This document shows, piece by piece, positions 10,265 to 24,745 of a stretch of DNA of 40,598 nucleotides; the first letter of the stretch is position 1; every line of letters begins with the position of its first letter. This DNA comes from Thiohalobacter sp. (GTDB lineage: Bacteria; Pseudomonadota; Gammaproteobacteria; Thiohalobacterales; Thiohalobacteraceae), in the NCBI RefSeq assembly GCF_027000115.1, contig NZ_JALTON010000047.1, positions 1 to 40,598 of the forward strand, written 5' to 3'. Made by a program: the position numbers and the translations under genes. Below the pieces are notes generated by a model. That model made no database searches. It was not told the origin of the DNA and saw only the letters and a list, made by a program, of their open reading frames with translations.

Positions 10265-12559
10265 ATGACAGCCTCGCAGGAAAACCGCTCGCCGGCCGTG
10301 GCGCCGCGCTTCCGCAGCCTCATGGAGGCCTGCCGCAAGATGACCCCCTCGCATCTCGGCCCGCTGTTCGCGCGTCTGCTGGAGAACATCGAGGTCGGGA
10401 TGCTGGAGGCCGCGGACCGGGCCGAGAACAACGAACTGCAGGCGGAATACTTTGCTGTGATGAACACCATCAAGCGTGACCGCCAGCAGATCCTGCAGCG
10501 CTTCCTCAAGGAAGTCGACGAAGGCTTTCGCCAGTTTCTGGAAGGCGAGCTGGAACCGATAGGCAATGTCGATCTGGAGCACGTCAGCGCCGACAAGCTG
10601 TCGCTGGTCGACAAGGCGGACATGGACTGGGCCCTGCCCATCCAGAACATCGTCGGCCGGGCCAGCACCACCTACATCGAGGAACTCTACGGCCTCAACC
10701 AGCGCCTCGCCATCGTCAACGGCGGCGTCAAGCTGCCGCCCGAGCAGTGGCCCGGCGGGCCCTACCGCCTGGCCGAGGCCTTCGCCCGCTCGCTGGGTGA
10801 CCTGCGAGTGCAGAAGCCCGTGCGGCTGATGCTGTTCGTGTCCTTCGACCGCCACGTGATGCGCGAGCTCAAGCCCTATCTCGACGAATACAACCGGCGC
10901 ATGATCAATGCCGGCATCCTGCCCAACCTTTCCTATGAGGTACGCAAGAATCCCAGTCGTGCCCGGCCCGCTGCCGGCGGCGGGGCGGAGGCGGCAGAGC
11001 CTGCGCCCGGCACGGAAGGCGGGACCTCGCCAGATGGCGGGACGCGCGCCACGGCAGCGGCGTCCTCGGTCGAAGGCATCCCGGGGGCGGACGGCACCGA
11101 AGTGGCACGTTTCCAGCGCCTGCGTGGCCTGCTCGCCGGCCGGCGCGGAGGCGGAGGCGAAGGCCAGTTCCGCAACGAGCCCAGCGCCCAGGTCGCGGGG
11201 CTGGCCCGCGAGCGACTGGTCGGCGCCCTGTCGACGGTACAGGGGCAGGCCGGTGCCCACCCGGCAACCGAGGCATACTTCGAGGAACTGACGGTCGACG
11301 AGCAGTTGCTGGCGCGGCTGCAGGAGATGCTGGACGAGGAGCGCGAGCGCATCTACGAGCATGTCGATCGCAAGCGCATGGCCAGCGAGGATCTGGACGT
11401 CATCGACCTGGTCGGCATGCTGTTCGAGTTCATGCTGCGCGACGCCAACCTGCCCGACGTCGCCAAGGCCCTGCTCAGTCGCCTGCATACGCCGTATCTC
11501 AAGGTCGCCCTGCTGGACAAGGCCTTTTTCGTGCAGAAGCGCCATCCTGCACGCAGGCTGCTGGATACCATGGTGACGGCCGGCGAGCGCTGGATCGTCG
11601 CCGACGACCTCAAGCGCGGCGTGTTTCCCTGCATGCGCGAGATCGTCGAGCGGGTGATCGACGAATTCGACGATGACCTGGCGCTGTTCGACGAGTTGCT
11701 CGCCGCCTTCCAGTCGCGGGTCAGGGAAATCGAGCAGAAGGCCAACAAGGTCGAGCAGCGCGCAGTGGAGGCCGCGGCGGGACAGGAGAAGCTCAAGGCA
11801 GCCCGGCGCCGCGCCCATGCCAGCATGGCGCGGCTGCTCGAGGAACGCCGCATCACCGACGAGATGTTTCACTTCTTCTCCCATGTCTGGGCGGAGAAGC
11901 TGATGTTCATCCTGCTGCGCGAACCGGAAGGCGAGGAGAGCCCGGCATGGAAGCTGGCCCTGCGCGTGGCGGCGGACATCGTCGAAACCGTGGAGCCCGA
12001 GTCGGACCCGCAGCGGCAGGCCGAGCGCCGCGAACGCCTGCCCGAGCTGCGGCTGGCCATCGCCCAGGCACTGGACGATCTCAGTGCCTACGGCCGACGC
12101 GACAACGCCCGCATGCTGGCGCAGATCGAGGCCTGGCAGGAGGCGGCGTTGGCCGAGCCGGAGACAGTCGCCGAATCCGTGGCCGAGGCCCGCCACGGGC
12201 CCGATCCGGAGGCCGCGCCCGAACCCGAACCCCAGGAGCGCAAGGCGGCCGTGGCACCCGAGGTGGCGGCGCAGATGGATCGCCTGTGCGAACTCGAGTT
12301 CGGCACCTGGTTCGAGTTCTCCGATCCCGCCAGTCACCTGGTCCGGCGCCTGCGCCTGGCCTGGTACAGCAAGGTCTCGGGCCGTTTCATGTTTGTCGAT
12401 GCCATCGGCACCAAGGCGGACGAGTGGGTGTGCGACGAGCTGGCGGCCGAACTGGTCGCGGGCCGCGCGCGCATCGTCGAGCCCGAAAAGCGTCCCTTCC
12501 TGGAGCGCGCGCTGGATGCCGTGATGAGCTTTCTCGGCCGGGGTTTGGATGACGACTGA
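10265..12559 (+). CDS. DUF1631 family protein
   Basis: This 764-residue soluble protein matches the DUF1631 family, which databases sometimes mislabel thymidine phosphorylase; its function is not established. The N-terminal part is helical (ARFRSLMEACRKMTPSHL-like start at about 15; LVDKADMDWALPIQNIVG near 115-133). Residues 235-330 form an A/G/E-rich low-complexity linker. A second helical block holds the conserved ELYGLNQRL (about 139) and DVIDLVGMLFEFML (about 378) segments. An E/P-rich linker (about 625-660) leads to a C-terminal beta-rich unit, FGTWFEFSDP then VRRLRLAWYSK and FMFVDAIGTK. There is no signal peptide or membrane segment. A PilZ protein follows 78 bases downstream, suggesting a c-di-GMP or surface-behaviour link. 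Confidence 0.85.
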   Translation: MTASQENRSPAVAPRFRSLMEACRKMTPSHLGPLFARLLENIEVGMLEAADRAENNELQAEYFAVMNTIKRDRQQILQRFLKEVDEGFRQFLEGELEPIGNVDLEHVSADKLSLVDKADMDWALPIQNIVGRASTTYIEELYGLNQRLAIVNGGVKLPPEQWPGGPYRLAEAFARSLGDLRVQKPVRLMLFVSFDRHVMRELKPYLDEYNRRMINAGILPNLSYEVRKNPSRARPAAGGGAEAAEPAPGTEGGTSPDGGTRATAAASSVEGIPGADGTEVARFQRLRGLLAGRRGGGGEGQFRNEPSAQVAGLARERLVGALSTVQGQAGAHPATEAYFEELTVDEQLLARLQEMLDEERERIYEHVDRKRMASEDLDVIDLVGMLFEFMLRDANLPDVAKALLSRLHTPYLKVALLDKAFFVQKRHPARRLLDTMVTAGERWIVADDLKRGVFPCMREIVERVIDEFDDDLALFDELLAAFQSRVREIEQKANKVEQRAVEAAAGQEKLKAARRRAHASMARLLEERRITDEMFHFFSHVWAEKLMFILLREPEGEESPAWKLALRVAADIVETVEPESDPQRQAERRERLPELRLAIAQALDDLSAYGRRDNARMLAQIEAWQEAALAEPETVAESVAEARHGPDPEAAPEPEPQERKAAVAPEVAAQMDRLCELEFGTWFEFSDPASHLVRRLRLAWYSKVSGRFMFVDAIGTKADEWVCDELAAELVAGRARIVEPEKRPFLERALDAVMSFLGRGLDDD

Positions 12560-12637: not shown

Positions 12638-12973
12638 ATGACCGACGAACAACGCGCCCACGCAAGGCGGCCGATGGCCCACGACCTGGTGGTCGAGGAC
12701 CTGCATACCGAGAAGGTGCTGGGCAGCCTGGTGAACCTCTCCGAGGAGGGCATGATGCTGCTGATGGACGAGCCCATCGAGCCGGCCCGCGTCATCCAGT
12801 GTCGCATCCGTCTCAATGAGCCCTGCGAGGGCATCGCCGAACTGGCACTCGGCGTGGAAAGCCTCTGGTGCCAGCCCACCGACGAACCCGGCCACTTCTG
12901 GGCCGGCTACCAGATCATCGACATCTCCGACGAGACCGCCGCCATTCTCGACAAGGTGCTGGGACGGGCCTGA
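12638..12973 (+). CDS. PilZ domain protein (canonical c-di-GMP-binding motifs)
   Basis: This 111-residue protein is a single PilZ domain, a cytosolic receptor for cyclic di-GMP. Both ligand motifs are present: RxxxR at R6-R10 (QRAHARR) and the (D/N)xSxxG motif as NLSEEG at 33-38. The conserved tryptophan and glycine of the last strands are in ESLWC and FWAGYQI. Binding is therefore expected from the motifs. GGGGA lies 5-8 bases before the ATG. It follows the DUF1631 gene in the same direction and ends 15 bases before the convergent glcF, leaving no room for a separate terminator. Confidence 0.93.
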   Translation: MTDEQRAHARRPMAHDLVVEDLHTEKVLGSLVNLSEEGMMLLMDEPIEPARVIQCRIRLNEPCEGIAELALGVESLWCQPTDEPGHFWAGYQIIDISDETAAILDKVLGRA

Positions 12974-16907: not shown

Positions 16908-17873
16908 ATGTTCCGATTTCTGCGTGGTCGTTCTGCCGACGACGAGACCGTCACCCCGGCCCGGCTGGAACCGCCGACCGGCCCGGTGCCGGTCAGCCGG
17001 TTCGCCTCGCTGGCGGAGCTGTACCCGCTCGGGGCGCCGTTGCGCCTGTTTCCGGAATTCGAGTCCGAGGTGCAACTGGATTCGCTGCTGCTCGGCTACC
17101 GCATCGACGGGCATGAGCTGTTCGCGCCCGGCGACTATCGGCTGCAGGCCGACAATGGCGCGCCGGCGCGGCTGATGATCGGCGAAGCGCGCCTCGACAA
17201 GCTGCAATCCCTCGAGTTTCTCATCCCCTACGATCGCAGCGAGCAGGCCCGGATCGACTATGTCAGTCGTGCCGAGCTGGATCGCCTGGGCCACTTCGCG
17301 CCCGGCAACCGCTTTACGCTGATCGGTGCCACGGTCGATCGCCAGACACCTTACCTGCTCAGCGAGGTGAGGCGTGTCGAGCACCTGGACAGCGGGGTGT
17401 ACCAGAACCATTCCGTGGCCGTGCTGCGCGTGTTCCCGGATACCCTGGAGTTCCACGACCAGCGCCGCTACTACCGGATCGAGACGGCCCAGCCGGCCGA
17501 GCTGCGCGCGGCCACGGGTGGACGCGCCCATGCCTGCACCCTGGTCGACTTCTCGGAAACGGCGACCCAGATCCTGCTCGACAAGGAAGACGAGGACGTG
17601 GCTGCCCTGCGGGATGGTCGGCGGGTCATCCTTGCGCTCGACATCCATGGCAGCGGCCAGCGTTTCACCCTCGGCGGTCGCGTGCTCCGGCGTGCGGGCC
17701 GGCGGCTGGTGTTGCGGCTGGAGACCCTTCAGCAGGGCGAGACGTTCGTGACCCTGACCACGCTGTCGGTACTGGCCATCAAGGCGGCGCTGCTCAAGGC
17801 ACCGCCCGACCCTGACTGTCTCACTGGCTTCGACCCGTTGTCGGCCGATACGGAGCCCGACGATGGAGGCTGA
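16908..17873 (+). CDS. YcgR/PilZ-like protein with degenerate c-di-GMP motif
   Basis: The product is about 321 residues from MFRFLRGRSADDE at 16908 (GAGG 8 bases upstream); an earlier ATG at 16875 would add 11 residues. Residues 35-170 look like the beta-rich N-terminal domain of YcgR-type proteins (LRLFPEFESEVQLDSLLLGY). A PilZ-like domain follows from about 188: DQRRYYRIETAQPAEL carries the R-x-x-Y-R/arginine segment, but the second motif reads VDFSETAT, with threonine where the ligand-contacting glycine (D/N-x-S-x-x-G) belongs. Binding of c-di-GMP is thus doubtful. The last 11 bases overlap tpm in another frame, implying co-translation. No exact family name is recognised. Confidence 0.6.
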   Translation: MFRFLRGRSADDETVTPARLEPPTGPVPVSRFASLAELYPLGAPLRLFPEFESEVQLDSLLLGYRIDGHELFAPGDYRLQADNGAPARLMIGEARLDKLQSLEFLIPYDRSEQARIDYVSRAELDRLGHFAPGNRFTLIGATVDRQTPYLLSEVRRVEHLDSGVYQNHSVAVLRVFPDTLEFHDQRRYYRIETAQPAELRAATGGRAHACTLVDFSETATQILLDKEDEDVAALRDGRRVILALDIHGSGQRFTLGGRVLRRAGRRLVLRLETLQQGETFVTLTTLSVLAIKAALLKAPPDPDCLTGFDPLSADTEPDDGG

Positions 17874-18519: not shown

Positions 18520-18677
18520 TCACGGCTTTCCACCAAGTCCCTGAATTCAAGGCTTTTGCCCCCGTGGCCGTTAACCTCTGACAGCCGGGCAGGCGTGCCG
18601 TCCCCATGCGGGTGGTCCTGTCCAACCGTATGAAACAAATGGGGTTTCAGGGAGTCAGCAAGAGGGAAGGACCCGAG

Positions 18678-20315
18678 ATGAAGCCAGGTTCCGGGGCAAT
18701 CGCCCGTATCAGTCTGCCACTGTGGTCGGCCGCCCTGCTGCTGCTGATCCTGTTCTCCCAGCTCGTCTGGCAGGACGCCCGTGCCGAGGAAGCCGCGGCC
18801 TCCGGCGGCGTGGATGCCGTGCTTGTCATCGACAGCTCCGGGAGCATGAAGGAAACCGATCCCCGCCGTCGCCGCGTGCCCGCCGCCAAGATGTTCATCT
18901 CGCTGCTGGGCGCATCCGACCGGGTGGGGCTGATCAGCTTCAGCGACGACGGCTATCCGGTGGTGCATCTCACCCCGGCTACGCCGGCCAACCGGGACAA
19001 GCTGTTCGCGGGCGTGGAGAAGGTGTCCGCCCGCGGGGCCTACACCAACCTCGCCGCGGCCCTGGAGAAGGGCCGCGAGATGCTGATGAAGGAAGGCCGG
19101 CCCGACCGGCGTCGCATGCTGGTGCTCATGTCCGACGGCCACATGGACACCGGCGATCACGTGCGCGATCGCGAGCTGGTGCAGGACATCCGGGAGCGCC
19201 TGATCGCTCAGCTCAGGGAGGACGGCATCGAGGTCTACACCATCGCCTTCACCGAGGCCTCCGACATGAGCCTGATGCGCGAACTGGCCACGGGCACCGG
19301 GGCGCTGTCGCGGCTGGCTTCCAACGACCGCGAGCTGCATTCGGTGTTCAGCGCCATCTTCGAGAGCGCCAAGCAGCCCGACCAGTTGCCCATGGACGGC
19401 AGCGATTTTCTGGTCGATTCGGCCGTCGAGGAGGTCACGGTCGTGGCCTCCAAGCCGACGCCGGATACCGAGATCAGCTTGCGCATGCCCGACGGCCGGG
19501 TCATCACCCGCGAAGTGGCCGGGCGCGCGGTGCGCTGGTTCCGTTCCGACCTGTTCGACATGATCACCATCCAGGGGCCGCCGCCCGGCCAGTGGCGGCT
19601 CATTTCGGATGCCGGCGATAACCGCGCCTATGTCGTCACCAACCTGGGCCTGGGTGCCCGCGTCGGTACCGACAAGGTGGTCTCGGGTGCCGAGGTACTG
19701 GCCGAGGCCTGGCTCAAGGAGGACGGGCACACCCTCCGGCGCCCGGAAATCCTGCGCGCCACCCGTTTCCGGCTGGAGATCGAGTCCCCCGACGGCAGCA
19801 AGGTGCAGGTGCCGCTGGCCGACACCGGCCAGGAAGGCGATCGCGAGGCCGGCGACGGTATCCACGCCAGCCTGATGAGTCTCACCCAGCCCGGCACCCA
19901 TCGGGTGCGGGCCATCGCCACGGGTGAAACCTTCCAGCGCGAGAAAGTGCTGTTCGTCGAGGTCGCGCCCGCCCCCGAAGGGGCATCGTTGCCGGCGCCT
20001 GCCGAACCCGAATCTGAGCAGGAACAGGCAGCCGAGCCCGAACCGCAGCCCGCCCCGGAAGCGGAGGCAGTGCCGGAACCGGAGCCGGCACCCGAGCCCG
20101 AGCCGGCGCCGATGGAAGAGAAGATTGTCGAGGACGAGCCCGAGGAGGAGGGCCCCAATATCGGGCTGATCGTATCCCTGTTCGTGCTGGTCAACCTGCT
20201 CATCGCCATGGTCGTCGCGCTGGTCATCTTCCTGCGCAAGCGCCGCGCCGCGGCAGCGAAGGACAAGGAAGAAGGGGGCGGGGAAGCCGGGGAGGGTGAC
20301 GGCCTCGAGGTCTGA
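18678..20315 (+). CDS. VWA-domain membrane protein with Pro/Glu-rich stalk
   Basis: The 545-residue protein has an N-terminal signal or anchor helix (about 14-37, ending DARA), a von Willebrand A domain (about 44-235), a beta-rich region (about 240-430), a P/E-rich stalk (about 440-490) and a C-terminal membrane helix (about 495-518) followed by RKRR and an acidic tail. The metal site is complete: D52-S54-S56 in IDSSGSM, T122 in YTNL and D153 in MSDG. VWA domains bind protein partners through a divalent metal. Topology places the VWA domain in the periplasm. The start at 18678 has GGAAGG upstream; an earlier in-frame ATG lacks one. It is followed after 11 bases by another anchored protein, probably a partner. 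No specific function is recognised. Confidence 0.75.
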   Translation: MKPGSGAIARISLPLWSAALLLLILFSQLVWQDARAEEAAASGGVDAVLVIDSSGSMKETDPRRRRVPAAKMFISLLGASDRVGLISFSDDGYPVVHLTPATPANRDKLFAGVEKVSARGAYTNLAAALEKGREMLMKEGRPDRRRMLVLMSDGHMDTGDHVRDRELVQDIRERLIAQLREDGIEVYTIAFTEASDMSLMRELATGTGALSRLASNDRELHSVFSAIFESAKQPDQLPMDGSDFLVDSAVEEVTVVASKPTPDTEISLRMPDGRVITREVAGRAVRWFRSDLFDMITIQGPPPGQWRLISDAGDNRAYVVTNLGLGARVGTDKVVSGAEVLAEAWLKEDGHTLRRPEILRATRFRLEIESPDGSKVQVPLADTGQEGDREAGDGIHASLMSLTQPGTHRVRAIATGETFQREKVLFVEVAPAPEGASLPAPAEPESEQEQAAEPEPQPAPEAEAVPEPEPAPEPEPAPMEEKIVEDEPEEEGPNIGLIVSLFVLVNLLIAMVVALVIFLRKRRAAAAKDKEEGGGEAGEGDGLEV

Positions 20316-20326
20316 GTCCGCACGCC

Positions 20327-22099
20327 ATGAACACGACCCTGCTCTACAGCCTGCTCGGTGTCCTCGAACTGGTCTTCGTGGTCAGTGGCGTGGCCATCTG
20401 GCTCTGGCTGCGCAATCGCCGGGCGGGCGCGCGCATCGTCGAACTGGAATCGGCGCTGGCCGAGGCCGCGCGCGCCGAACCCGAGCCGGTCGAGCCGGTT
20501 GCGGCCAGTGAGGGCGAGAGCGGGCCGCAGCAGCACTACGCCGACTTCCTCGGACTGGAACTCGAGGCGTCCACCCTGATGCTCGGACCGCAAACCGACG
20601 AGCAGGCTGCCGGCGAGGGCGCGGCCGGGGACGACCGCGTTCGCCAGATGCTCGCCGCCCGCCACCAGTTCCTGCAGATGGAACTGGATGCCGAGCGCAT
20701 GGGCAAGGACCCCGAGGCCAAGCGCAGGCATATCGTGGAGGGCATGGAGGCGTTGCTGGCAACCCTGTTCCCGGTCGACCAGGTCGCTGCGGGTGCCGGG
20801 GCCGAAGAAACCAGCGGGGTCGAGTCATCATCGGAGCCGGCGACCCTCGGCCGCGATCAGCAGCTCGAGGATCAGATCGCCCATCTCCGGTCGGTCATCG
20901 ACAACCAGCACGAGGTCATGCGCGACCTGCGTGAGTTGCTGGAGGAGACGTTTGACGACTCCGAGGAAGTACAGGCCATGATCCACCGCCTGGAGACGGC
21001 GGGCGAACGTGCCGAGCAGGTGCAGCGCGCGCTCGAGGCCAGCGGCATGTCCGGGTTCGAAGGCGCATCGGCAAGCCACGAGCCGGACGCCGACATGCTG
21101 CGCGATCTGGTCAGCAACCAGCAGCGCACCATCGATGACCTGAAGCGGATGCTGCACGAGGCGGTTTCCGATGGCGAGGTTGCCCAGGAACTCGAGGAGG
21201 CGATGGGCAGGATGCAGCGTGCCAACCAGGAGCTGGGCATGTGTGTCTCGGTACTGGAAGACGAGAATGCCCATCTGCGCGACGAGGTCGAGGAGCTGCG
21301 AGCGCAGGTCGAGGCGTTGCAGGACAGCGTTTCCGGGGAGGCCATCGGCGAGACCGGCCAGGTGGCGGAATCGGCCACGACAATCGCGCCGGAGGCACCG
21401 GACGGAGCCGAAACCATGGCGGAAGCGGATTCAGCGGAGGCATCGGCGCCCGGGGATCCTGTTGCCGAACAGCAGGCCAGCGAGGCGGTGAACCCGGTGT
21501 TCGAGGAGGTTCTGGCCGAGGCCGAAGCCGCCGAGGCGGAACGGGTCGAGGAGGTGAACACCGGGGACATCGGCGAAGCGGTCGACGTGGATGCCTTGCT
21601 GGAATCGGCAGGGCAGGCCGGGGGTGGCGCGGTGGACAGCACGGAAGCCGCGCAGCCGGTTACCGACGAGGACGTTGACGCCCCGATGGCGTCAGTGCCC
21701 ACGGGTGGGGAGGCCGCGCCGGCCGCGACAGACGATGATGCAGCTGAGCCCGCGGTTGCCGAGAATGACATGGAGGTCCTGTCGGAGGCGCGCCCGGCCG
21801 GGGCGGACGATGCGCCGGACGACGGCAGCGATGCGACGACTGCGCCGGGCGGAGATCAAGCGGTTTCCAGCGCGTCCCCCGAGGCGGATGCTGAACGGGA
21901 GGTGGTCATGCCGGTCGGTGCCAATCTCAATCTTGCCGAGGAGGCCGCGAAGGAAGCTGCGGGGACGGGAGAAAGAGACAAGACCGGCGAGGCCGACGCC
22001 CACGACATCGATGCTCTCATCGACGGTGCCCTGCAGGCGGGCCCGGATGCCGATCTGCGTGAGGCCGGATCCAGCGCAGCGAAATCCGGACAAAGGTAG
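20327..22099 (+). CDS. Membrane-anchored acidic coiled-coil protein of unknown function
   Basis: This 590-residue protein has one N-terminal membrane helix (about 5-28) followed by RNRR, placing the rest in the cytosol. A helical region spans about 100-345, with two similar units about 70 residues apart (IDNQHEVMRDLRELLEE near 189 and VSNQQRTIDDLKRMLHE near 261). From about 345 on it is low-complexity, rich in A, E, D, G and P, with two short motifs, VDVDALLESAGQAG (about 418) and HDIDALIDGALQAG (about 558), which resemble the EIDALL motif at the FliM N-terminus. It follows the VWA gene by 11 bases and faces the AMMECR1-like gene with a 4-base gap. No known family was recognised; the low-complexity region may evolve quickly. 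Confidence 0.7.
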   Translation: MNTTLLYSLLGVLELVFVVSGVAIWLWLRNRRAGARIVELESALAEAARAEPEPVEPVAASEGESGPQQHYADFLGLELEASTLMLGPQTDEQAAGEGAAGDDRVRQMLAARHQFLQMELDAERMGKDPEAKRRHIVEGMEALLATLFPVDQVAAGAGAEETSGVESSSEPATLGRDQQLEDQIAHLRSVIDNQHEVMRDLRELLEETFDDSEEVQAMIHRLETAGERAEQVQRALEASGMSGFEGASASHEPDADMLRDLVSNQQRTIDDLKRMLHEAVSDGEVAQELEEAMGRMQRANQELGMCVSVLEDENAHLRDEVEELRAQVEALQDSVSGEAIGETGQVAESATTIAPEAPDGAETMAEADSAEASAPGDPVAEQQASEAVNPVFEEVLAEAEAAEAERVEEVNTGDIGEAVDVDALLESAGQAGGGAVDSTEAAQPVTDEDVDAPMASVPTGGEAAPAATDDDAAEPAVAENDMEVLSEARPAGADDAPDDGSDATTAPGGDQAVSSASPEADAEREVVMPVGANLNLAEEAAKEAAGTGERDKTGEADAHDIDALIDGALQAGPDADLREAGSSAAKSGQR

Positions 22100-22103
22100 T
22101 GAA

Positions 22104-22685
22104 CTATTGCTGTTCCGCAAACGATTCCGTGGTGTAACGCCAAACCCGGACGGTCGGTGACCAGTGGCCCGGAGGCAGCCCGGCCTTGAGCTTTAGATGG
22201 GCGAGGAAGTCCTCGCGCCGCGGCAACTGCGCCCAGACCGAGGGCAGGAAGGTCCCGCGGCGACCCATGTCCTCCAGGATCAGGCCGTCGACCCCGGGGC
22301 GGATCTGGCGCAGCAGGTCGGCCTCGTCGGTGAACGCCATCGGCTCCGGCGGCGACAGCACCGAGATCTCGATCTCGAGGTCGTCGAATTCATCGACTGC
22401 CAGCGGGGGGAAGCGGGGATCGCGAAAGGCCGCGGCAAAGGCGTTCTCGGCGACATCCACCACCAGCGGGCGATGGGCCTCCAGGCTGCCGATGCAGCCG
22501 CGCAGCTCGCCCTGGCGATGCAGGGTCACGAAGGCCGCGCCCGGCGCCGCCAGCTCCGGATCGAAGTCGGCCGGATCGACCGCCAGCGGGCGACCGGTTT
22601 CCAGGCCATGGAGGATGGATGCGCGCGCCAGCCGCAGCAGCTCTGCGCGCCGGGTGCTGTCGAAACGCGGTTCAGTGGATGACAT
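22104..22685 (-). CDS. AMMECR1-family protein (AmmeMemoRadiSam system A component)
   Basis: The 193-residue protein is an AMMECR1 homolog with the family hallmark LRGCIG at 61-66, followed by VAENAFAAAFRDPRFPPL (about 77-94) and EIEISVLSPPEPM. The human relative is linked to a contiguous-gene syndrome; the biochemical role is unknown in any organism. In bacteria AMMECR1-like, MEMO1-like and a radical SAM protein are often encoded together and are named AmmeMemoRadiSam; all three are present here. The start MSSTEPRF at 22685 overlaps the upstream MEMO1-like gene by 14 bases, pointing to coupled translation. The gene ends 4 bases from the convergent coiled-coil gene. Confidence 0.93.
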   Translation of the reverse strand: MSSTEPRFDSTRRAELLRLARASILHGLETGRPLAVDPADFDPELAAPGAAFVTLHRQGELRGCIGSLEAHRPLVVDVAENAFAAAFRDPRFPPLAVDEFDDLEIEISVLSPPEPMAFTDEADLLRQIRPGVDGLILEDMGRRGTFLPSVWAQLPRREDFLAHLKLKAGLPPGHWSPTVRVWRYTTESFAEQQ

Positions 22686-23463
22686 AGGCGCCATACCCCA
22701 CCACCTGGTCGCGGGGACCGGCGGTGTCGCCCGAGTTGCGCAGATCCAGTGTCTCTGCCCGCAGGCCGCGCGCCCGCGCCGCCAGCAGGGCGCCGCCCAC
22801 CGGGATGCGGCCGCAGGCATCGTCGTAGTCCAGCGCTTCCGGCCGCAGTGATTCGATCGCCTTCGATGTGGCGCTGTCCATGGCGCGCGCGGTGGCATAG
22901 TCGTGGTAATGGCTGAGATCGGAACTGATCACGATCAGGGTTTCCGGGTCGTCCCAGAAGGCATCCAGCACCTCGCGCACTTCCTCGTAGGTGGCGTCGC
23001 CGACCACCAGCGGCACCAGTTCGAAGTCTTCCAGTACCTCCTGAAGGAAGGGCAGCTGCACCTCCAGGCTGTGTTCCCAGGCGTGGGCATCGTCGCGGAT
23101 CACGACCTGCGGCAGCCGTTCGGCGAGCGCAACGACGGCGGCCTGGTTGACGGGCACGTCGCCCAGCGGGGTACGGAAATGGGTGGCCGTGGGCGCGGCC
23201 AGCCCCCGCACAGGCACGCGGTGGGCCGGGCCCAGAAGTACCACGCGCCGCACCTGCCCGCGCAGGGGTACGAGCTGCGCATAGGCGGTGCCGGCGACCG
23301 GGCCGGAATAGATGTAGCCGGCGTGCGGCACGATCACCGCCTTGGGCGGCGGCGAGCTGATGCGGGCCGGATGCGACAGGAAGGCACGCACCTCCGCGCG
23401 CAGCCGTTCCGGCTCGTCCGGGTAAAAGGTGCCGGCGACGGCCGGCGGGCGAATCCTGCTCAT
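22672..23463 (-). CDS. MEMO1-family protein (AmmeMemoRadiSam system B component)
   Basis: The 263-residue protein belongs to the MEMO1 family, structurally related to class III extradiol dioxygenases. Residues corresponding to the metal ligands of human MEMO1 are intact: H47 in VPHAGYIYSG, H81 in LGPAHR and C217 in DDACGRIP. Other conserved segments are EHSLEVQLPFL (130-140) and ISSDLSHYH (179-187). Human MEMO1 binds copper or iron and acts in redox signalling; the bacterial reaction is unknown. It shares an upstream region of 166 bases with the divergent radical SAM gene and overlaps the AMMECR1-like gene downstream. Confidence 0.95.
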   Translation of the reverse strand: MSRIRPPAVAGTFYPDEPERLRAEVRAFLSHPARISSPPPKAVIVPHAGYIYSGPVAGTAYAQLVPLRGQVRRVVLLGPAHRVPVRGLAAPTATHFRTPLGDVPVNQAAVVALAERLPQVVIRDDAHAWEHSLEVQLPFLQEVLEDFELVPLVVGDATYEEVREVLDAFWDDPETLIVISSDLSHYHDYATARAMDSATSKAIESLRPEALDYDDACGRIPVGGALLAARARGLRAETLDLRNSGDTAGPRDQVVGYGAYVIH

Positions 23464-23501
23464 GACGACTGCTCCGCGGCTTCCCTGTCCTTCACATAGT
23501 A

Positions 23502-23597
23502 TTGAGGCAGGTCAAATTCAAGCCCGTCTGCCGTTGCGGCCGCGGCGGATCGTCCCCATATTGATCCAGCGCGCATATTGCACCAGGGCATGTGCAA
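23502..23597. promoter_or_regulatory. Candidate operators in the MEMO1/radical SAM intergenic region
   Basis: TTGAGGCAGGTCAA at 23502-23515 is an imperfect FNR/ANR-like dyad, 8 of 10 conserved positions of TTGATnnnnATCAA, with symmetric changes. At 23578-23597 TTGCAC and GTGCAA form an inverted repeat with an 8-base loop, about 30 bases before the radical SAM start. CATATTG occurs twice, 17 bases apart (23557 and 23574). None is paired with a clear -10 element, so the regulator and the affected gene are unknown. Confidence 0.25.
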
Positions 23598-23629
23598 CAG
23601 GCCTGCCCGGAAATGTGAGGAGTCGGCGC

Positions 23630-24745
23630 ATGAGCGATCAGGAACATCATCAGCCGGACTGGGATCCGCGCTACGTGAAGGAAACCCGCTACTGGCACAC
23701 GCTGGAGGATGGCCGCGTCCAGTGCGATCTCTGCCCGCGGTTCTGCAAGCTGCGGCCGGGCCAGCGCGGCTTGTGCTTCGTGCGCGCCAACCAGGATGGA
23801 AAGATCGTGCTGACGTCCTATGGCCGCTCCAGCGGCTTCTGCGTCGATCCCATCGAGAAGAAACCGCTCAACCATTTCCTGCCCGGGACCCCGGTGCTGT
23901 CCTTTGGTACCGCGGGCTGCAACCTGGCCTGCAAGTTCTGCCAGAACTGGGACATCAGCAAGTCACGCGAGATCGACACCCTTGCCGACGAGGCCTCGCC
24001 GGAGAAGATCGCTCGGGTGGCCGAGGCGCTGGGGTGCCGCAGCGTTGCCTACACCTACAACGACCCCGTCATCTTCCACGAATACGCCATCGACGTCGCG
24101 AAAGCCTGCCACGAGCGCGGCATCCGTTCGGTGGCGGTCACCGCCGGCTATATCACCGAGGAAGCGCGCAAGGAATTCTTTGCCCACATGGACGCCGCCA
24201 ATGTGGACCTGAAGGGCTTCACGGAGGACTTCTACTGGAAGCTGACCGGCGGTCACCTGCAGCCGGTGCTGGATACGCTGGAATACCTGGCGAAGGAAAC
24301 CGATGTCTGGGTGGAGATCACCACGCTGCTGATCCCCGGCTGGAACGATTCCGACGAGGAAATCGACGCCATGACCCGGTGGGTGGTGGCGCATCTGGGT
24401 CCGGACGTGCCCATGCACTTCACGGCCTTCCATCCCGACTACAAAATGATGGACACGCCGCCGACGCCGCCGCAGACCCTGACCCGGGCGCGCGAGATCG
24501 CCCTGCGCAATGGTGTGCATTATGCCTATACCGGCAACGTGCACGACGAGGCCGGCGAGAGCACCTATTGCCCGCACTGCGGCACGTGCGTCATCGGCCG
24601 CGACTGGTATGTGATCACCGACTGGAACCTGACAGCGGAGGGCCATTGCGGCCACTGCGGTGGCACCATTGCCGGCGTGTTCGAGGACAGGCCCGGCACC
24701 TGGGGTGCCAAGCGGCTGCCGGTAAGGCTGGCCGCCTTTGGCTGA
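23630..24745 (+). CDS. AmmeMemoRadiSam system radical SAM protein
   Basis: The 371-residue protein is a radical SAM enzyme: the cluster cysteines are C97, C101 and C104 in CNLACKFC. It also has an N-terminal cysteine set C32-C35-C39-C49 (CDLCPRFCKLRPGQRGLC) and two C-terminal CxxC units (C314-C317-C320 and C340-C343) that probably bind zinc or further iron-sulfur clusters. The arrangement, including YTYNDPVIFHEY and NVDLKGFTEDFY, matches the pyruvate-formate-lyase-activase-related protein found with MEMO1 and AMMECR1 homologs. Its substrate is unknown. The start at 23630 is preceded by TGAGGAG; an earlier in-frame start would reach into the divergent MEMO1-like gene. Confidence 0.95.
   Translation: MSDQEHHQPDWDPRYVKETRYWHTLEDGRVQCDLCPRFCKLRPGQRGLCFVRANQDGKIVLTSYGRSSGFCVDPIEKKPLNHFLPGTPVLSFGTAGCNLACKFCQNWDISKSREIDTLADEASPEKIARVAEALGCRSVAYTYNDPVIFHEYAIDVAKACHERGIRSVAVTAGYITEEARKEFFAHMDAANVDLKGFTEDFYWKLTGGHLQPVLDTLEYLAKETDVWVEITTLLIPGWNDSDEEIDAMTRWVVAHLGPDVPMHFTAFHPDYKMMDTPPTPPQTLTRAREIALRNGVHYAYTGNVHDEAGESTYCPHCGTCVIGRDWYVITDWNLTAEGHCGHCGGTIAGVFEDRPGTWGAKRLPVRLAAFG

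Follow-up and report, generated by a model that had tools for sequence, protein, structure and literature searches.

In the accessible parts of two papers on Magnetospirillum magneticum AMB-1 (PMC9512821; PMC13170167), McaA and McaB are described as the products of a two-gene operon. McaA has a signal peptide, a periplasmic VWA domain with a metal site, one transmembrane (TM) helix and a C-terminus inside the cell, and the 219-residue McaB has about 4 residues followed by one TM helix and a cytosolic coiled coil. According to the same excerpts, localisation of McaA requires its metal ion-dependent adhesion site (MIDAS), the two proteins co-immunoprecipitate, and each interacts with the actin-like protein MamK. 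The available portion of the first paper called mcaAB specific to magnetotactic bacteria in 2022 (PMC9512821), and an excerpt of a further one describes magnetotactic strains, some of them gammaproteobacterial, with mcaAB outside the magnetosome cluster (PMC9840458); excerpts of two others (PMC12748827; PMC11344931) gave no further information on this. Here we report on two adjacent genes in a 40,598-nucleotide contig of Thiohalobacter sp. (NZ_JALTON010000047.1; this whole stretch is the window), one encoding a VWA membrane protein and the other an acidic coiled-coil partner. McaA/McaB would be the closest studied pair, with the same architecture as judged from the published descriptions. Comparative sequence evidence indicates that the two genes are a conserved module, and that their products likely form a transmembrane hetero-complex.

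Overall architecture of the VWA protein and its partner

Both genes lie on the forward strand and are separated by 11 bases (20316–20326), just as a preliminary description, made from the letters and a list of open reading frames (ORFs), had placed them. Their features are as follows.

18678–20315, forward strand: VWA protein gene, 545 residues (ORF list, PF00092, alignment, structure model)
18678–18800, forward strand: signal peptide or hydrophobic N-terminal helix, residues ~1–41 (hydrophobic stretch; helix 15–41 in the model)
18801–19382, forward strand: VWA domain, residues ~42–235, with D52/S54/S56, T123 and D153 (Pfam, alignment, model, fold search)
19389–19970, forward strand: two beta regions, residues ~238–431, common to TIGR03503 (NCBIfam match, model)
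19971–20156, forward strand: stalk rich in proline and glutamate (P/E), residues ~432–493, low model confidence (composition, model)
20160–20273, forward strand: TM helix, helix 495–532 in the model, with invariant Asn506 at 20193–20195 (alignment, model)
20327–22099, forward strand: partner gene, 590 residues, pI 4.05 (ORF list, profile, model, composition)
20333–20419, forward strand: partner TM helix, residues ~3–31, with invariant Glu14 at 20366–20368 (alignments, model)
20525–20767, forward strand: helical domain, residues ~67–147, mostly confident (model)
20846–21343, forward strand: coiled-coil helices, residues ~174–339 (profile, model)

The VWA start at 18678 is supported by a purine-rich site 5' of it, AGAGGGAAGGA; the alternative start, which gives the longest ORF, is at 18606. 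The protein matches PF00092 at 70.8 bits (E = 2.2e-19; Pfam gathering cut-off 23.8). All residues of a metal site are present: D52-x-S54-x-S56, T123 and D153, which we take to be the MIDAS ligands, show conservation of 90% or more, up to invariance, across 46 relatives, and DxSGSM is present in 146 of 151 full-length relatives. In the structure model (mean predicted local distance difference test score 87.3; 46 sequences), an N-terminal helix is followed by the VWA domain, two beta regions, a low-confidence stalk of 59% P+E between the beta domains and the membrane, and helix 495–532, the single TM segment, after which the cytosolic tail is short. Fold matches included 4fx5 (Z 25.2, root-mean-square deviation 1.8, 182 residues aligned) and BatB (3ibs_B; Z 22.0, deviation 1.8, 170 aligned), and Pfam also gave a match to a hemicentin galactose-binding-like region (E = 3.9e-6). 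The periplasmic VWA domain with a complete metal site on a P/E stalk that had been proposed is thus borne out by PF00092, the conserved residues, the stalk composition and the model.

The partner model starts with a confident N-terminal TM helix, continues with a helical domain and coiled-coil helices, and ends in an acidic tail that is disordered. Because basic residues follow the TM helix, we infer from the positive-inside rule that the C-terminus is inside the cell; the pI, the N-terminal TM helix, the coiled-coil helices and the acidic tail all agree with the earlier picture of a long acidic, coiled-coil tail in the cytosol. Against Pfam, NCBIfam and PADLOC the partner gave weak coiled-coil matches only and no named family. 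The fold search with its model found no match at E ≤ 0.001, and a profile search of solved chains returned coiled-coil matches only. A role in defence was rejected, as the PADLOC matches were to coiled coils only. A partner profile seeded with 8 sequences recovered 61 partners and 0 background proteins in its first round. After further rounds it matched 112 of 115 partners, a figure that is partly by construction because only listed partners or paralogues were admitted, along with 4 background matches among ~1,300 other proteins (1,445 in total); 3 of these are unlisted partner genes and 1 is the fused VWA protein of locus L216. On this profile evidence, the partners are one family.

The preliminary description recognised no family beyond VWA and called the pair unassigned. 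This stands for the partner, which no library tested names. It does not stand for residues 237–444 of the VWA protein, which match TIGR03503 (NCBIfam; 69.1 bits, E = 3e-19, under the curated cut-off of 305.6), nor for the pair as a whole, in that McaA/McaB, apparently of the same architecture, have already been studied.

The two genes are paired across lineages

We assembled 161 loci (the window plus sets of 20, 60 and 80). Removal of 8 without a called VWA gene, 6 repeats (147 unique loci) and 2 weaker matches left 145 dereplicated full-length VWA genes, and 8 of these loci ended before any downstream gene, leaving 137 usable. A neighbour was scored as partner-like if it was co-oriented, no more than 400 bp away and encoded a protein with one N-terminal TM helix. 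The next gene downstream was partner-like in 111 of 137 loci, compared with 6 of 136 upstream, and one of these 6 (L063) is a true partner placed just upstream of the VWA gene. The commonest spacing is -4 bases, which suggests translational coupling. Among the loci are Thiohalobacter thiocyanaticus, whose strain Hrh1 has the pair at L170, many Gammaproteobacteria and Nitrospirota records and a few labelled Deltaproteobacteria or Desulfobacterales. Of the 26 rows scored as non-partner, 7 were judged by eye to have one after all: L158, L180 and L233 carry an extra hydrophobic stretch, the start was missed in L191, L192 and L215, and the last is L063. The remaining 19 are partnerless.

The two genes also travel together at the level of whole genomes. 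Among 274 genomes of the window's class (E ≤ 1e-60 for the VWA protein, E ≤ 1e-8 for the partner), the VWA protein is present in 76 and the partner in 65; 60 have both, 16 the VWA protein only and 5 the partner only (Fisher p = 3e-39). These genome lists, like those behind the flagellar counts below, were compiled by hand. Two of the five partner-only genomes are doubtful or degenerate: the hit in G029 is a 1,437-residue frame and probably coiled-coil noise, and G046 has a degenerate VWA gene beside the partner. G104, G121 and G237 are real orphans, with a partner-like gene and no VWA neighbour. In some VWA-only genomes the adjacent gene is in fact a diverged partner, as at L160 and L167. The neighbour analysis suggested in the preliminary description therefore came out in favour of pairing, and the wide occurrence of each gene without the other, named there as evidence to the contrary, was not found. 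The VWA half is thus present in roughly one in four of the Gammaproteobacteria genomes sampled (76/274). The two-gene module, which is also found in Nitrospirota, is not functionally annotated in any library tested. In the literature, within a coverage that excludes most subscription papers, we recognised no publication on this wider VWA/coiled-coil pair.

Conserved polar residues within the two membrane helices

The TM core of the partners was taken as the most hydrophobic stretch of 19 residues. Glutamate occurs in this core in 104 of 112 partners, compared with 2 of 59 other proteins of these loci that have a single N-terminal TM helix. Either Glu or Gln is found in 109 of the 112, and Asp, Lys or Arg in none. 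Glu14 is the sole invariant column in both partner alignments (A3 and A4; 33 and 36 sequences). On the other side, asparagine is present in the C-terminal TM core of 131 of 145 VWA proteins, compared with 107 of 664 control TM segments, and Asn506 is invariant across the 46 relatives.

The two residues lie at similar depth. Towards the cytosol, the first basic residue is reached 15 (or 18) positions from the Glu and 14 (mostly 12–15) from the Asn. The two depths differ by at most 3 residues in 69 of 100 pairs, whereas randomly chosen positions do so in 36% on average and in no more than 53%. Both residues are absent in L067 and L143 (p = 0.0017 for co-loss, from a hand-made table that omits L063 and the Gln variants). 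From this matched conservation we infer a hetero-complex with a polar contact inside the membrane. These residues, together with the adjacency in 111 of 137 loci, the genomic co-occurrence and the fusion described below, strongly support the proposal that the pair acts as a single envelope module in which a head in the periplasm is linked to a coiled coil in the cytosol.

A natural fusion, partnerless members and paralogues

In a Nitrospiraceae record (L216:4217–6463), a single 749-residue frame contains the VWA part, the TM helix and the coiled-coil region of the partner (domain E = 4.6e-7), and no separate partner gene is adjacent. VWA proteins without a partner have a longer cytosolic tail, with a median of 162 residues compared with 24 in those with one (n = 112; p = 5e-7). 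In 9 loci of one group (L069, L222, L224, L226, L230, L238, L240, L243 and L245) a small hydrophobic membrane protein is encoded directly upstream of the VWA gene; 8 of the 9 are partnerless and the ninth stops at a contig edge. The VWA proteins of these loci mostly have long acidic tails, and the genes before the small protein in many of them resemble, we presume, rnd, ycgL and ycgN.

Partner paralogues also occur alone, in the window's own genome (L071:7581–8240) and at L072:7254–7883 and L074:1241–1894, between genes that we take to be rnhB and dnaE. The TM glutamate is conserved in each of these paralogues.

TIGR03503 covers the post-VWA beta regions and the TM helix, as found in the window protein. 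Its cut-off was passed in 1 of 185 genomes (G148), by a protein with the beta regions and TM helix, no recognisable VWA part and no partner. L260:4736–6004 encodes a TIGR03503 protein with no recognisable VWA part or partner. TIGR03503 is thus a related form that lacks the VWA domain.

Co-occurrence with flagellar genes and peptides in the cytosolic tails

FliM is present in 71 of the 76 genomes with the module and in 70 of the 198 others (p = 7e-20). With one genome drawn per family, which is the sole phylogenetic correction applied, the counts are 11 of 11 and 9 of 34 (45 genomes), and with genomes of at least 2.3 Mb only, 9 of 9 and 8 of 20 (p = 0.003). FlhF scores over its cut-off in 25 of 27 module genomes and 17 of 63 others. 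A distinction between polar and other flagella was dropped, since FlhF is also over the cut-off in 15 of 17 FliM-positive genomes without the module.

Some tails of the module carry short peptides like those in the N-termini of FliM and FliN. The E. coli FliM N-terminus is MGDSILSQAEIDALLNGD, and E. coli FliN contains MDDLWAEALSEQ; the available part of one paper reports that EIDALL of FliM binds phosphorylated CheY (CheY-P) (PMC9126983). The window's own genome has FliM and FliN with similar peptides, its FliM carrying SQEEIDALLHG. Two related peptides lie in the partner of the window:

21575–21610, forward strand: FliM-like peptide EAVDVDALLESA in the acidic tail (motif pattern, FliM comparison)
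22001–22033, forward strand: second, weaker FliM-like peptide, HDIDALIDGAL (by sequence; outside the motif patterns used)

Over the whole set, the FliM-like pattern occurs 33 times across 19 of the 115 partners (mean after shuffling, 1.8), in 5 of 34 long VWA tails and in 14 of 931 background proteins. The FliN-like pattern occurs 19 times, in 6 of 115 partner tails, 4 of 34 long VWA tails and 0 of 931 background proteins. The acidic tail of the partner at L139:2730–4064 contains the W-AL-EQ peptide of the FliN-like kind six times, and the tail in L190 holds peptides of both kinds. Neither window protein has a Pfam match to a FliM or FliN domain.

Proposed mechanism and alternative explanations

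Given the conserved Glu and Asn, it is probable that the two TM helices pair through partner Glu14 and VWA Asn506, which would link the stalked periplasmic head to a cytosolic scaffold. That the head binds or reads a feature of the envelope through its metal site while the cytosolic part holds client proteins, as a landmark or adaptor in the manner of McaA/McaB, we put at slightly short of an even chance. A landmark or scaffold role would fit the module at least as well as the sensing role first suggested for it. The clients in most lineages could be the flagellar and chemotaxis system, docked on the FliM- or FliN-like peptides of either subunit's tail, of which the FliM type binds CheY-P in the flagellar switch, a step that we propose with distinct caution; a flagellar or chemotaxis client is a hypothesis with correlative support. 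As the best overall reading we tentatively favour a transmembrane landmark or adaptor of the McaA/McaB type, with flagellar or chemotaxis proteins perhaps as its clients.

Several observations weigh against this reading. The FliM co-occurrence may be due in part to lifestyle and phylogeny, and G091 has the module with neither FliM nor FlhF over the cut-off. No flagellar gene cluster was seen beside the module at the loci, save for one neighbour in L062 that we take to be CheV-like. The peptides are found in a minority of tails only, short motifs arise easily, and the window copies are weak. For McaA/McaB themselves, the accessible text gives two-hybrid and cytosolic-fragment pull-down results as negative, and the requirement of McaA 530–665 for McaB co-precipitation speaks against a simple direct contact (PMC9512821; PMC13170167). 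Within the module family, 19 of 137 loci have no adjacent partner, one of them being the fusion, and partner paralogues exist away from any VWA gene. Finally, L261 and L262 have a partner and no recognisable VWA start, indicating that the metal site is not always needed and that the partner is tied more to the beta-TM part than to the metal site.

Of the alternatives, a cytoskeletal landmark with no flagellar role survives best, though we consider it rather unlikely; here the VWA head would read membrane geometry and steer MreB as McaA/McaB steer MamK. It draws on the similar architecture of McaA/McaB and, in the available excerpts, the interaction of both with MamK (PMC9512821; PMC13170167), a likeness of architecture by description rather than a sequence comparison. 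The window's own genome does have MreB (best match 5.6e-148); three weaker matches to the MreB model there are probably other actin-fold proteins, and no MamK-like second actin is evident. However, matches to the MreB model turn up in 12 of 14 control genomes, a much broader distribution than that of the module, and neither module protein shows any pointer to actin binding.

Coupling to peptidoglycan or envelope integrity, with the module regulating or anchoring a wall synthase in the Thiohalobacter group, is suggested by one neighbour cluster of 14 loci, 11 of which have this presumably PBP1B-like gene as the second one downstream. This neighbour is limited to 4 of 99 VWA clusters and absent from the window, and other contexts differ, which leaves the idea quite improbable. 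We give far less weight still to a MoxR-type chaperone arrangement, in which the VWA protein would act for a MoxR AAA+ ATPase in the way that ViaA does for RavA. In L240, L243 and L304 the VWA gene is indeed followed by genes that we take to be MoxR-like, but these loci all have partnerless, long-tailed members, a cytosolic ATPase could not reach a periplasmic head, and no MoxR ATPase gene was seen beside the window pair, its neighbours judged by sequence. That the two genes are unrelated neighbours held by chance or a common promoter has their shared orientation in its favour and nothing further, and it can practically be discarded in view of their conservation in different contexts, their co-occurrence, the fusion and the co-conserved TM residues.

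An extension of the favoured landmark or adaptor reading is more speculative, and we regard it as unlikely: the module might be an undescribed accessory of polar flagellates, in which a metal-dependent head, the Glu–Asn contact and a scaffold whose FliM- and FliN-like peptides capture CheY-P, or proteins that bind the switch, would tie the switching or placement of the motor to the state of the envelope or the geometry of the cell. McaA/McaB would then be a specialised offshoot recruited for organelle positioning and not unique. Should the module work as the favoured reading proposes, it would provide a testable link between the envelope and the flagellar and chemotaxis machinery, and it could account for the failure of purified cytosolic McaA and McaB to bind, since their contact may need the TM helices.

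Gene neighbourhood

Beyond the pair, neighbours vary between lineages, and none but the partner spans more than 25 of 99 VWA clusters. Response regulators lie near 25 of the 99; this candidate was dropped, as an excess over their genomic frequency was not established. In the window, a PilZ-domain protein of 321 residues is encoded two genes upstream of the VWA gene (16908–17873), and in L068 a distant homologue (29% identity) is encoded next to the VWA gene in divergent orientation. Further upstream, a DUF1631 gene (10265–12559) is followed by a small PilZ gene (12638–12973), a pair that recurs in related genomes. Downstream of the partner, three genes (22104–24745) look to us like an AMMECR1/MEMO1/radical SAM set (AmmeMemoRadiSam). 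In L190, L191, L194 and L215, from Nitrospirota and similar records, the upstream gene encodes a protein of 114–125 residues, whose start presumably resembles PilB/GspE N-terminal domains.

Comparison with known systems

Hemicentin-, CLCA- and BatB-like VWA proteins have the VWA fold in common with the window protein, but not the whole architecture or the partner, and the structure matches centre on the VWA domain. RavA–ViaA is a MoxR ATPase with a VWA partner; as here, a VWA protein goes with a conserved partner gene, and a few relatives have a MoxR-like neighbour, but the partner is an ATPase there and a membrane coiled coil here. With FliM and FliN the likeness is confined to peptides, as DIDALL-like and DDLWADAL-EQ-like sequences of their N-termini also appear in some cytosolic tails of the module.

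McaA/McaB come nearest, compared by description. Like McaA, the window VWA protein has a signal peptide, a periplasmic VWA domain with an intact metal site and a single TM helix. Like McaB, the partner has an N-terminal TM helix, a very short periplasmic N-terminus and a cytosolic coiled coil, and the genes are likewise adjacent, with their 11-base gap. The TM helix of the 776-residue McaA ends near residue 392 and is followed by a long cytosolic tail with the conserved McaB-binding region 530–665, whereas that of the window protein lies at 495–532 and the tail is short. Searches of 398 genomes at the level of the phylum and 385 at that of the class (the latter probably Alphaproteobacteria) gave, outside the window's class, VWA-domain matches only, with no McaA-like layout in the loci inspected. 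While mcaAB has been described as specific to magnetotactic bacteria, the module of the window occurs in many genomes not so labelled, and if the module works as proposed, McaA/McaB would belong to a much wider setting than magnetotactic bacteria.

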